Positions 45,085 through 52,736 of a stretch of DNA of 64,000 bases are shown here, piece after piece. Where the stretch lies: positions 62,001 to 126,000 of the forward strand of contig NZ_JAFKRG010000019.1 of assembly GCF_019038415.1 (NCBI RefSeq), written 5' to 3'. The position numbers and the translations under genes were made by a program. This DNA comes from Synechococcus sp. CCY 9618 (lineage in GTDB: Bacteria; Cyanobacteriota; Cyanobacteriia; PCC-6307; Cyanobiaceae). The notes beneath the pieces are model-generated. The model did no database searches, was not told the origin of the DNA, and saw only the letters and a list, made by a program, of their open reading frames with translations. Position 1 is the stretch's first letter. The number at the start of each line of letters is the position of its first letter.

Positions 45085-45645
45085 ATGGCTCCCCTGCCGC
45101 CCCCCGAGCCCCCCACCCACCTGGAAACCACCGCCGCTCTCCAGGCCCGCAAGGTGCGCTTCGAGCTCAACCGGGTGGTGCTGCCCATCGGCATCGAGGG
45201 CACCTACGGGGTGATCCGCCATCCCGGCGCCTCCCTGGCGGTGCCCGTGCTCGCCGATGGCCGGGTGGTGATCCTGCGCCAGTACCGCTTCGCCGTGGCG
45301 GGCAGGCTGCTGGAGTTTCCGGCCGGCACCCTGGAGGAGGGGGAGCAGCCCCTGGGCTCGATGCAGCGGGAGCTGGAGGAGGAGACGGGCTACAGCGCCA
45401 GCCGCTGGGATCCCCTGGGCGCCATGCACCCCTGCCCCGGCTACTCCGACGAGCTGATCCACCTGTTCCTGGCCCGGGATCTCACCCTCCTCCAGGACCG
45501 CCCCCCCGGGGACGACGACGAGGACATGGAGGTGCTGCTGCTGGAGCCGGCCGCCCTGGATGCGGCCATCGCCAGCGGCGATGAGGCCCTCGACGGCAAG
45601 ACCGTGACCGCCTGGTTCCGCGCCCGCCAGCTGCTGGCCCTCTGA
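45085..45645 (+). CDS. NUDIX hydrolase, ADP-ribose pyrophosphatase type
   Basis: A 186-residue hydrolase of nucleotides linked to another moiety. The NUDIX box is seen as GTLEEGEQPLGSMQRELEEETGY (shortened: G-x5-E-x7-REL-x2-E-x-G) from about residue 82. The preceding VVILRQYRFAVAGRLLEFPAG and the following LGAMHPCPGYSDELIHLFLA are typical of ADP-ribose/sugar-nucleotide pyrophosphatases. ATG 45085 is preferred to an in-frame ATG at 45049. The photolyase gene starts at the last base of its stop (TGATG), so the two are coupled. Confidence 0.9.
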   Translation: MAPLPPPEPPTHLETTAALQARKVRFELNRVVLPIGIEGTYGVIRHPGASLAVPVLADGRVVILRQYRFAVAGRLLEFPAGTLEEGEQPLGSMQRELEEETGYSASRWDPLGAMHPCPGYSDELIHLFLARDLTLLQDRPPGDDDEDMEVLLLEPAALDAAIASGDEALDGKTVTAWFRARQLLAL

Positions 45646-47159
45646 TGGCCGCTCCGGGGTCCTTGGAGCGCTGGCTGTTCTGGCACCGGCGCGACCTGCG
45701 CCTGGCCGACAACCTGGGCCTGGCCGCCGCCGCCGCCGCCACCCCCGCCGTCACCGGCCTGTTCGTGCTCGACCCGGCGCTCCTGGCCGATCCGGCCATG
45801 GCGCCGGCCCGGATCTGGTTCCTCTGCCAGAGCCTGCAGGAACTGGCGGCCCGCTGGCAGGCGGCCGGCAGCCGGTTGCTGCTGCTGCGGGGCGACCCGG
45901 AGGCTTTAGTGCCCCTGGCGGCCCGGGCCACCGGAGCCGCCGTGGTGGCCTGGAACCGGGATGTGGAGCCCTACGGCCGCGAGCGCGACCGGCGGGTGGC
46001 GGCGGCCCTGCGCGGCCAGGCCACCCGGGTGCTGGTCGACTGGGACCAGCTGCTGGTGGCGCCGGAGGCGATCCGCACCGGAGCCGGCGAGCCCTACCGC
46101 GTCTATGGCCCGTTCCTGCGCAACTGGCGCGGCCAGCTGGAGGGGCGCGCGGGGCTCGGCTCGGCGGCGGCCGGGGGGCTGGAGCCGGTGGCGGCCCCCA
46201 CCGGCCTGCAGGATCTGGATCCCGCCGCCTTCCCTGCGGAACGGGCGGCCCTCTGGAACGAGCTGCCCCGGCTGGAGGCCGTGCCCACGGCCGAGGCCCT
46301 GGGTTTCACCTTCGGCGGCGCCGACCTCTGCCCCTGCCGCCCCGGGGAGGCGGCCGCCGCCGCCCAGCTGGCGGCCTTCGCCGATGGCGGCGTCAACGGC
46401 GGGGCCCTGGCCGCCTACGAGCCCGGGCGGAATCTCCCCGGTGAGGCCGGCACCTCCGGACTCTCGGCCGCCCTCAAGTTCGGCACCCTCAGCCCCCGCC
46501 AGGCCTGGGCTGCCGCCCAGGCCGCCCGCCAGCTCGCCCGCAGCGAGGAGGCCCTCACCTCCATCGGCGTGTGGGAGCAGGAGCTGGCCTGGCGCGAGTT
46601 CTACCAGCAGGCCCTGTTCCATTTCCCCGAGCTGGCCGACGGCCCTTACCGGCCCCAGTGGCGCCACTTCCCCTGGGAGAACGACCCGGCGCGGCTGGCT
46701 GCGTGGGAGCAGGGGCTCACCGGCCTGCCGATCATCGACGCCGCCATGCGCCAGCTGAATGAAAGCGGCTGGATGCACAACCGCTGCCGCATGGTGGTGG
46801 CCTCCTATCTGGTCAAGGATCTGATCGTCGACTGGCGCCACGGCGAGCGGGCCTTCATGGCCCGCCTGGTGGACGGCGATCTGGCCGCCAACAACGGCGG
46901 CTGGCAGTGGAGTGCCAGCAGCGGCATGGATCCCAAGCCCCTGCGCATCTTCAACCCCTCCACCCAGGCGGCCCGCTTTGATCCGGAGGCCGTCTACATC
47001 CGCCGCTGGCTGCCGGAACTGGCCCATGTGGCCACCGCCGATCTGATCAGCGGGGAGATCGCCCCCCTGGAACGGCGCGGTTACCCCGAGGTCATCGTCA
47101 GCCACAAGTTGCAGCAGGCCCGCTTCAAGGCCCTCCACGCCGGCTTGCCGAAGGGCTAG
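45645..47159 (+). CDS. phr: Deoxyribodipyrimidine photolyase, class I CPD type
   Basis: A 504-residue light-dependent repair enzyme for pyrimidine dimers, in the normal domain order. The alpha/beta antenna domain comes first (WHRRDLRLADN near residue 13, WNRDVEPYGRERDRRV near 105). The FAD-binding helical domain follows with GTSGLSAALKFGTLSPR near 273, the ELAWREFYQ motif near 311, the W-x-x-G-x-TGLPIIDAAMRQLNESGWMHNR run near 350-380, and SYLVKDLIVDWRHGE near 389 with NNGGWQWSASSG near 418. Tryptophans of the electron chain are in the expected places. Confidence 0.96.
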   Translation: MAAPGSLERWLFWHRRDLRLADNLGLAAAAAATPAVTGLFVLDPALLADPAMAPARIWFLCQSLQELAARWQAAGSRLLLLRGDPEALVPLAARATGAAVVAWNRDVEPYGRERDRRVAAALRGQATRVLVDWDQLLVAPEAIRTGAGEPYRVYGPFLRNWRGQLEGRAGLGSAAAGGLEPVAAPTGLQDLDPAAFPAERAALWNELPRLEAVPTAEALGFTFGGADLCPCRPGEAAAAAQLAAFADGGVNGGALAAYEPGRNLPGEAGTSGLSAALKFGTLSPRQAWAAAQAARQLARSEEALTSIGVWEQELAWREFYQQALFHFPELADGPYRPQWRHFPWENDPARLAAWEQGLTGLPIIDAAMRQLNESGWMHNRCRMVVASYLVKDLIVDWRHGERAFMARLVDGDLAANNGGWQWSASSGMDPKPLRIFNPSTQAARFDPEAVYIRRWLPELAHVATADLISGEIAPLERRGYPEVIVSHKLQQARFKALHAGLPKG

Positions 47160-49729: not shown

Positions 49730-50428
49730 TCAGGCCAGGGCCGCGGCGCCCACATAGCCCAGCGGGAGGGCCAGGGGCCAGACCTCCCCCGTGCTGCCGG
49801 CCCGCTGCGGTTCGATGCCGAACAGCCCCAGGCCCCTGGCTTTCAGCTGTGCCTCCAGCCGGCACCAGGCCGCCAGGAAGGCATCCCCCCGGTCGCGCTC
49901 CGGCAGGGCCCGGATCGCTTCCCGCTCCGCCGCCGCCAGGCAGCGCCGGGCGATCCCCTCCCACTCCGGCACCGGGCGCAGCCGCTCCACATCCACCCCC
50001 ACCTCCCGGCTGGGATGGAAGCCCAGCAGGATCAGATCCCCCGAGTGGGACACATTGAAACGGGGTGGGGGGGCCTCCCCTTCCGGCCCTGAGCTGCTTC
50101 GCGTCATCAGCTCCGGCTTTCCGTACGGTCCGTTCCCGATGGCGACGGCAGCCGGTTCCCGGCCCAGCCAGGACCCCAGCATCAGGCGCAGCAGGCCACG
50201 CCCCAGCAGGAAGCGTTCGCGATCCTCCTGCCGTCGCAGTTTCTCCAGCCGGAGCGCCTCCGCCGGATCCAGCAGGCCCTGCAGGGGTCCGGCCAGCGCC
50301 CGGGTGCCGGGCGCACGCCGATCGATCAGCAGCAGTCTGGGAGGCGATTCCGGCCCCGGCCATGCTCCCGGCGGTGCCGCCATCCCGGGGGCATCCGCTC
50401 CGGGCCAGGGCTCGGGAACGAGGCCCAT
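49730..50428 (-). CDS. 4'-phosphopantetheinyl transferase, Sfp/HetI type
   Basis: A 232-residue enzyme that attaches the phosphopantetheine arm to carrier proteins. LGRGLLRLMLGSWLG near residue 73, PYGKPEL near 98, FNVSHSGDLILLGF near 120, GVDVERLRPVPE near 138 (magnesium-binding D-x-E) and FLAAWCRLEAQLKARGLGL near 182 follow the family order; in the last motif the usual W-x-x-K-E-A-x-x-K shows L in the first lysine place. Its ATG shares one base with the stop of the photolyase-like gene upstream. Confidence 0.87.
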   Translation of the reverse strand: MGLVPEPWPGADAPGMAAPPGAWPGPESPPRLLLIDRRAPGTRALAGPLQGLLDPAEALRLEKLRRQEDRERFLLGRGLLRLMLGSWLGREPAAVAIGNGPYGKPELMTRSSSGPEGEAPPPRFNVSHSGDLILLGFHPSREVGVDVERLRPVPEWEGIARRCLAAAEREAIRALPERDRGDAFLAAWCRLEAQLKARGLGLFGIEPQRAGSTGEVWPLALPLGYVGAAALA

Positions 50429-51861
50429 CAACGGCCGTCCCCCCGGGGCAGGAGGCGCCAGACGGCGGGCTCGGCGGTTCCCCAGTAGCGGCTGAAACGA
50501 CGCAGATCGAGGCGAGACTCCGGGTCGTCCGGCAGGGGCACGAAGGGATCGGGCGCCAGCACCTGCACCGGCAGGGCCGCGGCGATCCGGGCCCGCACCC
50601 CCTCGAAGCGGGGGTCCACCGCCTGGCTGGTGATCACCCCATCGGCCCCCAGGCGGCGGGCGAAGCTCACCACCTGCTCGGCCACATCTCCCCAGCGGAT
50701 CGTCACCGGCAGCTCCAGCAGGCATTCGTAGAGAAACACCAGTCGCTTCCGGCTCAGGGGGCTGGCATCACCGCTCCGCCCTCCCGTGGTGGCGGTGCCC
50801 CCGGTGATCAGCTCCCTGTCGAAGACGAACAGGGCCGGCGCACCCGGGTGCTTCCGCAGGGCGGGGTTGGCGGGACCAAGGGCTTCCCCGTGGATCCAGA
50901 GCACCGGCTGTCGGGGGGTGTCGCCGCCGGGGCCGCCAGCGGATCCCTGCCAGGGCTGCGTCGGCGTGGCCCGGGCCAGATCCGTCGCCGCCGGCGGGAA
51001 CAGCCGGGCCTGGAGCGTCTCATAGCTGGCCTCGAAGGGGCAGCCGCTTGCCGCCCGCCCGCAGCTGCGGCAGAAGCGGCTGCCGCCGAAGCGCTCCAGA
51101 TTCGCCCGGTTGAACAGATAGGGCTTGCTGCCGAAGCTGCTGGCCACCCACTGCCAGCTGAGGTTGTTGCTGGCCGGATCGCCGTCCAGCAGGTGCTGCA
51201 GGAACCAGCGGGCCCCCGCCTGCCAGCGCACCCGACGCCAGTGCACCACGTAGGCCGCCAGCCACATCCGGGCGTGGTTGTGCAGCCAGCCGACGCCCAC
51301 CAGATCGGCGGCGAAGGCGTCCATGCAGGCCAGGCCGGTCCGGCCCTCGCGAATGTCGGCCGGAAGTTCGCTGGTGTAGGCCGCAGCGGCGTGGCCGGTC
51401 TTCAGCGGCTCCCGGTCGTCCCAGATGCCGTCGCCCCAGCGCCGCCAGAGGCGCTGCCAGTAGTCGCGCCAGCCCAGCTCGCTGATCAGCTTCCCTCCCT
51501 GCCGCTGGGCCTCTGCCCCCGTCAGCCCCTTCTCCCCCAGCCGCCGGAACACGGCATCCCGCACCTCCGCCAGGGTGAGCACCCCGTGGCGGATGTAGGG
51601 GGACAGGCCGGTGACGGCGCCATCGAGGTGGTTGCGGCTGGCGCCGTAGGCGGCGGGATCGATCGTCCCCAGAAGTCGCAGAGCTTGCCGGCGCCCGCCT
51701 CGGATCGGCCCCGGGGCCTGGCCGTGGCCGGCATCCGATCGCGCTCCTGCGCCAGCGATCCGCCGCTCCAGCTCCTCCACCAGCGCGCCACGGCTGACGA
51801 AGTGACGCGGCAGGTCACCCACGGCGTCTCCCCAGTCGAGGTCCTGACCCTCCAGCGCCAT
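50428..51861 (-). CDS. Photolyase/cryptochrome-like protein with reversed domain order
   Basis: A 477-residue protein containing both photolyase halves, but in swapped order. The FAD-binding helical domain is first (about residues 55-262): TGLSPYIRHG, ELGWRDYWQ, GWLHNHARMWLAAYVVHW near 190 and LLDGDPASNNLSWQWVASSFG near 228. A cysteine group C-x2-C-x6-C (FCRSCGRAASGCPF) follows near 264. Then the alpha/beta half appears at about residues 312-440: VLWIHGEALGPANPAL, ALFVFDRELITGG, SRKRLVFLYECLLEL and GADGVITSQAVDP. ATG 51861 is chosen because the longer GTG start (51942) would leave only 11 bases to the divergent fabI. Function is inferred from fold only. Confidence 0.8.
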   Translation of the reverse strand: MALEGQDLDWGDAVGDLPRHFVSRGALVEELERRIAGAGARSDAGHGQAPGPIRGGRRQALRLLGTIDPAAYGASRNHLDGAVTGLSPYIRHGVLTLAEVRDAVFRRLGEKGLTGAEAQRQGGKLISELGWRDYWQRLWRRWGDGIWDDREPLKTGHAAAAYTSELPADIREGRTGLACMDAFAADLVGVGWLHNHARMWLAAYVVHWRRVRWQAGARWFLQHLLDGDPASNNLSWQWVASSFGSKPYLFNRANLERFGGSRFCRSCGRAASGCPFEASYETLQARLFPPAATDLARATPTQPWQGSAGGPGGDTPRQPVLWIHGEALGPANPALRKHPGAPALFVFDRELITGGTATTGGRSGDASPLSRKRLVFLYECLLELPVTIRWGDVAEQVVSFARRLGADGVITSQAVDPRFEGVRARIAAALPVQVLAPDPFVPLPDDPESRLDLRRFSRYWGTAEPAVWRLLPRGDGR

Positions 51862-51953
51862 GGCATCGGAGACCGGATCGGGGCAAGGCGCCGCAGCGGG
51901 TGGGGGAGAATCGCCGGATCGCACTGCTTCGCCCTCCGGCACCCTGAACCCCC

Positions 51954-52736
51954 ATGCTCCTCGATCTGCGCGGCAAGAAGGCTCTCGTCACCGGCATCGC
52001 CAACAACCGCTCGATCGCCTGGGGCATCGCCCAGCAGCTGGCGGCGGCCGGCTGCGAGCTGGGCGTCACCTATCTGCCCGATGAGAAGGGCCGCTTCGAG
52101 GCCAAGGTGCGCGAGCTCACCGCGTCCCTGAACCCCACCCTGTTCGAGCCCCTGAACGTGCAGGATCCGGCCCAGATCGAGGCCGTGTTCCGGCGCATCG
52201 GCGAGCAGTGGGGCCAGCTCGACGTGCTGGTGCACTGCCTGGCCTTCGCGGGCAAGGAGGAACTGGTGGGTGACTACAGCGCCATCAGTCCCGAGGGGTT
52301 CGCCCGGGCCCTGGAGGTGAGCGCCTATTCCCTGGCCCCCCTCTGCCGCGGCGCCAAGCCCCTGTTCAGCGAGGGCGCCAGTGTGATCACCCTCAGCTAC
52401 CTGGGGGCCGAGCGGGCCATCCCCAACTACAACGTGATGGGCGTGGCCAAGGCGGCCCTGGAGGCCTCGGTGCGTTATCTGGCGGCTGAGCTCGGCCCCC
52501 AGAAGCAGGTGCGGGTGAACGCCATCAGCGCCGGTCCGATACGCACCCTGGCCAGCTCCGCCATCGGCGGCATCCTCGACATGATCCACAACGTGGAGGA
52601 GAAGGCCCCCCTGCGTCGCACCGTCACCCAGGACGAGGTGGGCAGCACGGCCGCCTTCCTGGCCAGTCCCCTGGCCAGCGGCATCACCGGCCAGGTGATC
52701 TATGTGGACGCGGGCTACTGCATCACCGGAATGTGA
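51954..52736 (+). CDS. fabI: Enoyl-[acyl-carrier-protein] reductase (NADH)
   Basis: A 260-residue short-chain dehydrogenase completing each round of fatty-acid elongation. It shows ALVTGIANNRSIAWGIA near residue 10, VLVHCLAFAGKEEL near 87, and the active site SYLGAERAIPNYNVMGVAK near 145-163 (tyrosine-x6-lysine with the extra upstream tyrosine special to FabI). AISAGPIRTLAS near 186 and the end ITGQVIYVDAGYCITGM agree fully. It overlaps the convergent GT61 gene by 14 bases. Confidence 0.96.
   Translation: MLLDLRGKKALVTGIANNRSIAWGIAQQLAAAGCELGVTYLPDEKGRFEAKVRELTASLNPTLFEPLNVQDPAQIEAVFRRIGEQWGQLDVLVHCLAFAGKEELVGDYSAISPEGFARALEVSAYSLAPLCRGAKPLFSEGASVITLSYLGAERAIPNYNVMGVAKAALEASVRYLAAELGPQKQVRVNAISAGPIRTLASSAIGGILDMIHNVEEKAPLRRTVTQDEVGSTAAFLASPLASGITGQVIYVDAGYCITGM

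Follow-up and report, generated by a model that had tools for sequence, protein, structure and literature searches.

The gene at positions 50428..51861 on the (-) strand of the window, the whole 64,000-nucleotide stretch of Synechococcus sp. CCY 9618 DNA that was analysed, very likely encodes a Phr6-type photolyase. The protein would combine an N-terminal FAD and iron-sulphur half with a C-terminal alpha/beta antenna half, and would be the fused version of a two-protein enzyme, Phr4/Phr5. The points in favour from this analysis are the FAD_binding_7 match, the identity of the C-terminal half, the cysteines, the CPD-type residues at the lesion site and the co-occurrence of the two halves among genomes. 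The published architecture and cysteines, the presence of phr3 nearby and the UV-C defect of a phr4 mutant (PMC9426592) point the same way.

The architecture is already known, and the window gene is Phr6. In the accessible parts of Haney et al. 2022 (PMC9426592), a study of 81 picocyanobacterial genomes, the reverse-order architecture is named Phr6 and was found in two Cyanobium strains, as a single gene in which the FAD domain precedes. The split version is named Phr4/Phr5, and phr4 and phr5 are adjacent in all marine Synechococcus and in half of the six Cyanobium strains. All Phr4 and Phr6 proteins are stated to have four Fe-S cysteines, and in Synechococcus RS9916 phr3 lies several genes from phr4/phr5 (PMC9426592). 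A heterodimer of the products of two adjacent genes in WH7803 was suggested in 2012 (PMC3441193). The initial annotation had described the gene as circularly permuted, which implies an internal rearrangement. That description fits less well, because in many relatives each half has a gene of its own, and the two can lie far from each other; the joining or splitting of two partners explains the order better.

The reading frame of the window gene is uninterrupted, as had been noted. It starts with an ATG at 51861, giving 477 residues, but continues open to a GTG at 51942, which would give a protein of 504 residues (P0001, the numbering used below), and it stops with a TGA at 50430-50428 (-). Full-length relatives occur in many genomes, and a local frame error or a chimeric contig is thereby ruled out. 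The fabI-like enoyl-ACP reductase gene, assigned by Pfam, lies at 51954..52736 (+) and is indeed the divergent neighbour. On the other side a 4'-phosphopantetheinyl transferase gene, also assigned by Pfam, lies at 49730..50428 (-) with a possible ATG at 50428-50426. The photolyase stop shares bases with this ATG in the sequence TGATG (window 50426-50430), and the two genes may therefore be translationally coupled. The window genome carries three further photolyase-family genes, a phr1-like gene (G000:C46:45189), a PhrB-like gene (G000:C34:179736) and an ordinary class I photolyase gene of the phr3 type, which is located at 45645..47159 (+) in the window, 3.3 kb from the reverse-order gene. The PhrB-like gene encodes four cysteines and adjoins a uvrC-like frame.

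The two halves occur in one frame, the FAD half followed by the alpha/beta half, and this order is confirmed. The FAD-binding half covers residues 41-335 (50938..51822, (-)) and the alpha/beta, antenna-type half covers residues 343-500 (50443..50916, (-)); both were placed by profile and fold matches and their borders are approximate. All the motifs quoted in the initial annotation are found in the protein, and Pfam places FAD_binding_7 at residues 153-273 (E 2.7e-21), within the N-terminal half as had been expected. The expected DNA_photolyase match was missed in the window protein alone. The whole protein gave no match to this family at E<=1, and its C-terminal half stays below significance, with E 0.12 when scanned alone and E 0.41 in the genome scan.

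The window protein taken alone therefore lacks an alpha/beta match in its last 160 or so residues, the outcome that the initial annotation had named as evidence to the contrary, but this was overturned by the C-terminal halves of its relatives, by profiles and by the fold. Among 44 related C-terminal halves, the window's included, 39 matched PF00875 at E<=10, and 29 did so at E<=0.01, with a best E of 1.5e-5; the runner-up family, universal stress protein, matched 7 of the 44 with a best E of 0.0016. A profile of the C-terminal halves compared with the alpha/beta domains of ordinary photolyases gave 96.7% (E 3.3e-10). The same comparison with 100 column shuffles gave at most 2.97% (E 0.015) and with the reversed profile 0.09%, and these controls rule out a chance resemblance. 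In the AlphaFold2 model the C-terminal half matches R. sphaeroides CryB in its N-terminal domain (residues 1-126; Z 12.0, rmsd 2.1, 111 residues), and its scores against universal stress proteins reach Z 9.9. The model of the whole protein has a pLDDT of 92.0 and a pTM of 0.93, the latter meaning no more than that the packing of the halves is predicted with confidence.

The initial annotation also placed a cysteine group in the linker between the halves. The cysteines are present and they matter, but they are not a separate linker feature. C291-x2-C294-x6-C301 (51040..51072, (-)) is part of the FAD half and forms a four-cysteine motif of the Fe-S type with C206 (51325..51327, (-)), and each of the four is invariant in the 67 FAD-half rows of the alignment. 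The same genome encodes a PhrB-like photolyase that matches PF04244 with E 5.4e-65 and has the same four-cysteine pattern, and cysteines of this protein align with C206 and C301. The four cysteines of the window protein are predicted to hold an iron-sulphur cluster.

Relatives with the same domain order were sought, and both fused and split forms were found widely. Among the matches listed in 299 genomes of the window's order there are 105 strong matches to the FAD half, and all 105 have an adjoining alpha/beta half, fused in 30 genomes and split in 75. The best 80 of 420 named loci comprise 39 fused ones, of which 30 are from Cyanobacteriota, 7 from Acidobacteriota, 1 from Anaerolineae and 1 from an Eremiobacterota bin, and 41 split ones, which come from Cyanobacteriota, from Chloroflexota and from bins labelled Singulisphaera and Tatlockia. 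Several of these loci are metagenome bins, so that some of the taxon names may be wrong. On three Deinococcus plasmids a single uninterrupted match spans 78 to 79% of the query, with 43.8 to 45.7% identity. Two of them (L374:2357-3730 and L375:2369-3787) carry a single gene annotated as a FAD-binding domain-containing protein, and in Deinococcus sp. QL22 (L376) the halves are two overlapping genes. A search of viral contigs (viral_contigs) with the C-terminal half alignment found no viral relatives. A tree of 162 FAD halves built with FastTree requires at least 7 switches between fused and split, 2 of which are forced by well-supported branches. The best 80 of the 420 loci are kept in this tree, but they are biased to fused or in-frame forms and were therefore excluded from the frame counts given below. 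One locus counted as split, L185, has its break within the FAD half and is therefore probably a broken fused gene.

The alignments used part of the rows. A1 (90 rows) contains the window protein, 43 of 46 fused rows and 23 of 50 split pairs; the fused rows left out are the window's own copy (L001), one that is cut (L040) and one that is long (L057). The window protein is also in A2, with 43 of 50 split C-terminal halves, and in A4, with 23 of 50 split FAD halves. The junction census leaves out G046 and G279, whose matches were only partial.

The two halves occur together even where they are not linked. In a search of 194 cyanobacterial genomes, for which at least 90% completeness was requested, both halves were found in exactly the same 36 genomes; the weakest FAD-half match had an E of 1.9e-128 and the weakest best alpha/beta match an E of 1.1e-54. 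The halves lie within 400 nt of each other in 19 of these genomes, the fused gene of the window included, and within 2 kb in 3. In 7 genomes (G393, G472, G356, G469, G482, G368 and G395) they share a contig but are separated by 0.48 to 4.9 Mb, and in another 7, all draft assemblies, they are on different contigs. A second search covered 251 genomes of the phylum to which a Roseiflexaceae bin belongs; the FAD half was found in 14 of them (E<=1e-40), each of which also has the alpha/beta half (E<=1e-5). An alpha/beta half with no close FAD half was found once in the two phylum searches, at G567:C126:59619-60017, and it counts against the Phr6-type reading, as does the low Pfam score of the window's C-terminal half. 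Matches to the FAD half that have no partner are of a different kind: G336 has an intermediate match (1.8e-64) with neither the four-cysteine pattern nor a C-terminal half match, and the Phr7 proteins of Prochlorococcus match at 1e-33 to 1e-36. A naive probability of co-occurrence is meaningless since the genomes share ancestry. Still, the co-occurrence of the halves even when unlinked is what would be expected of an obligate two-subunit enzyme.

Frameshifting and two subunits were both left open by Haney et al., and the exactly maintained spacer between phr4 and phr5 was the reason given for proposing frameshifting (PMC9426592). If the split relatives made one polypeptide by programmed frameshifting, the enzyme would always be a single chain. 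The 75 split junctions are difficult to reconcile with this. The second frame relative to the first is 0 in 18, 1 in 11 and 2 in 46, and because all three relative frames are used, one conserved programmed frameshift cannot explain the splits. In 66 of the 75 junctions the second frame has an ATG in the stretch from 7 nt before the end of the stop codon to 30 nt past it, and a Shine-Dalgarno-like core is upstream of that ATG in 19 of the 66, both being counts without a chance control. In 14 of the 36 cyanobacterial genomes, moreover, the halves are on separate contigs or at least 0.48 Mb apart. A universal single chain made by frameshifting is thus extremely improbable.

Domain order, domain identity, the conserved cysteines and the co-occurrence of the halves were computed here, and a mode of action can be proposed for the Phr6-type enzyme. 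The C-terminal alpha/beta half would bind a light-harvesting chromophore and transfer energy to reduced FAD in the N-terminal half. The latter would use electron transfer to reverse a UV lesion in DNA, and the four cysteines would hold the putative iron-sulphur cluster. In many relatives the same enzyme would be built from two proteins, Phr4 and Phr5, in a complex.

The lesion that would be reversed can be approached through six positions of E. coli photolyase, E274, W277, N341, M345, W382 and W384, which are known residues of the CPD site. All six have the same residue in the window protein: E155 (51478..51480, (-); E in 66 of 67 rows), W158 (65 of 67), N222 and M226 (51265..51279, (-); 67 and 60 of 67) and W263 and W265 (51148..51156, (-); 67 of 67 each). 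The PhrB-like protein of the same genome shares only W158 and differs at the other five. The substrate is probably cyclobutane dimers rather than (6-4) photoproducts; CPD repair is favoured because the lesion-site residues are of the CPD type and because SPL proteins are reported, at second hand, to repair CPDs and to contain an Fe-S cluster. Haney et al. suggested (6-4) repair (PMC9426592), a published guess in which the Fe-S cysteines would mark a domain-swapped relative of the Fe-S bacterial (6-4) enzymes. The four cysteines agree with this, and so does the fold of the FAD half in VIA-align, where Fe-S (6-4) photolyases of the PhrB type come first (Z 17.1, rmsd 3.9, 269 residues) and the Thermus photolyase scores Z 14.3; Foldseek, in contrast, ranks a class I CPD photolyase (1qnf) first. 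The RS9916 phr4 mutant survives UV-C 20 to 30 times more poorly and has no UV-B defect (PMC9426592), which is also in keeping with (6-4) repair. The five residues shared with the E. coli CPD enzyme in 60 to 67 of 67 rows, the differences at these positions in the genome's own PhrB-like protein, the fact that such a protein with four cysteines is already present, and the second-hand reports on SPL proteins all argue against it, and (6-4) repair is considered possible but unlikely.

The CPD reading has points against it as well: the phr4 phenotype confined to UV-C, the ranking by VIA-align and the behaviour of phr4/phr5 in E. coli, where the protection that they gave against UV-C did not differ significantly between light and dark (PMC9426592), unlike that of a simple photolyase. 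These observations, together with the authors' (6-4) prediction, also count against the Phr6-type photolyase as the best explanation. The protection with no significant light dependence would also fit a protein that is not a repair enzyme. The photolyase family includes light sensors, and a cryptochrome-like sensor could be considered for the window gene. Yet the lesion-site residues are preserved in nearly all rows and survival under UV-C drops when phr4 is lost, and a sensor is very improbable.

NewPHL, SPL and Phr7 proteins may be related to the Phr6-type photolyases, and the C-terminal Z-domain is of interest in this respect. A 2026 paper, citing Emmerich 2020, describes an inverted topology of NewPHL/SPL proteins, and in the accessible literature the short photolyase-like proteins are described as being without an antenna domain. 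The view that the Z-domain of Phr7 is the same domain as the Phr5-type alpha/beta domain is unsupported on the Prochlorococcus sequences, which gave no profile match (0.4%, L298 left out). L298:1-126, the one match of Phr7 to viral contigs, is a 126-nt piece from the end of a Phr7-like gene, at the edge of a contig that IMG/VR classifies as viral; it may be host DNA or a phage-borne copy. Five alpha-proteobacterial Z-domains matched the Phr5 domain weakly (11%, E 0.0027; shuffles down to 0.019), and these together with the Prochlorococcus Z-domains gave 0.8%, within the null. Three NewPHL-like proteins, two from Persicobacter and one from G336 (L372:889-2121, L383 and L384), have a C-terminal domain that matches the Phr5 domain at 91.8% (E 7.5e-7; 40 shuffles at most 3.3%, E 0.013). 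It is possible that they are intermediates towards the Z-domain, but they were picked after inspection, with an ordinary photolyase (L382) left out of the comparison, and the result is a lead only. The three did not match the alpha-proteobacterial Z-domain set (0.9%).

It can be speculated that the reverse-order photolyases are the tip of a separate two-protein lineage in which a FAD/Fe-S subunit is served in trans by a free antenna subunit. Were the lineage as old as has been proposed for the short photolyase-like proteins, the ancestral photolyase would have had two subunits, both domain orders would have arisen by independent fusions and the Z-domain of NewPHL would be a decayed antenna subunit. 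This scenario is rather doubtful.

The fused gene can be read as a 'Rosetta stone' for two proteins that in some cyanobacteria are encoded up to megabases apart. From the fusion it is predicted that a short photolyase-like protein forms one repair enzyme with a small protein of the alpha/beta type, each being a subunit. In the genomes examined, FAD halves of the window type always occur with a separate or fused alpha/beta half. The question of the substrate can now be posed plainly, as a published (6-4) guess versus CPD-type residues. New in this analysis are the finding that unlinked halves occur together, the census of split junctions, the broader distribution and the argument about the substrate. 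No statement on unlinked halves was found in the accessible parts of the literature searched, the supplementary tables of Haney et al. 2022 excepted, and likewise none on junction frames, CPD-type residues or fused copies outside the cyanobacteria.

Among known systems the closest are Phr6 and Phr4/Phr5 as described in the accessible text of PMC9426592. They share with the window gene the FAD half first and the alpha/beta half last, in one gene in the case of Phr6, four cysteines of the Fe-S type, a nearby phr3 and an occurrence in picocyanobacteria. Phr4 of RS9916 is otherwise of the same kind but in its published numbering has x5 as the third cysteine spacing (C257, C263), where the window protein has x6. 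Phr7, SPL and NewPHL proteins (PMC13274461, PMC9649867, PMC9426592, as far as these sources are accessible) also have the FAD half at the N-terminus, with a reported inverted topology, and Prochlorococcus Phr7 has the LHNH-RMW and SW-WV motifs in common with the window protein. Phr7 differs in having none of the Fe-S cysteines and a Z-domain that is unmatched by profile. The Fe-S bacterial (6-4) photolyases, PhrB and RsCryB, resemble the window protein in the four-cysteine pattern and as the top VIA-align match of the FAD half; however, their domain order is the opposite, five lesion-site positions differ as judged from the PhrB-like protein of the window genome, and PF04244, which in this genome matches at C34 only, has no Pfam match in the window protein. 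Class I CPD photolyases such as E. coli Phr share the lesion-site residues, and the FAD half finds its best sequence matches in the PDB among them, but they carry the alpha/beta domain before the FAD domain, and the phr3 of the window does not have the four cysteines.
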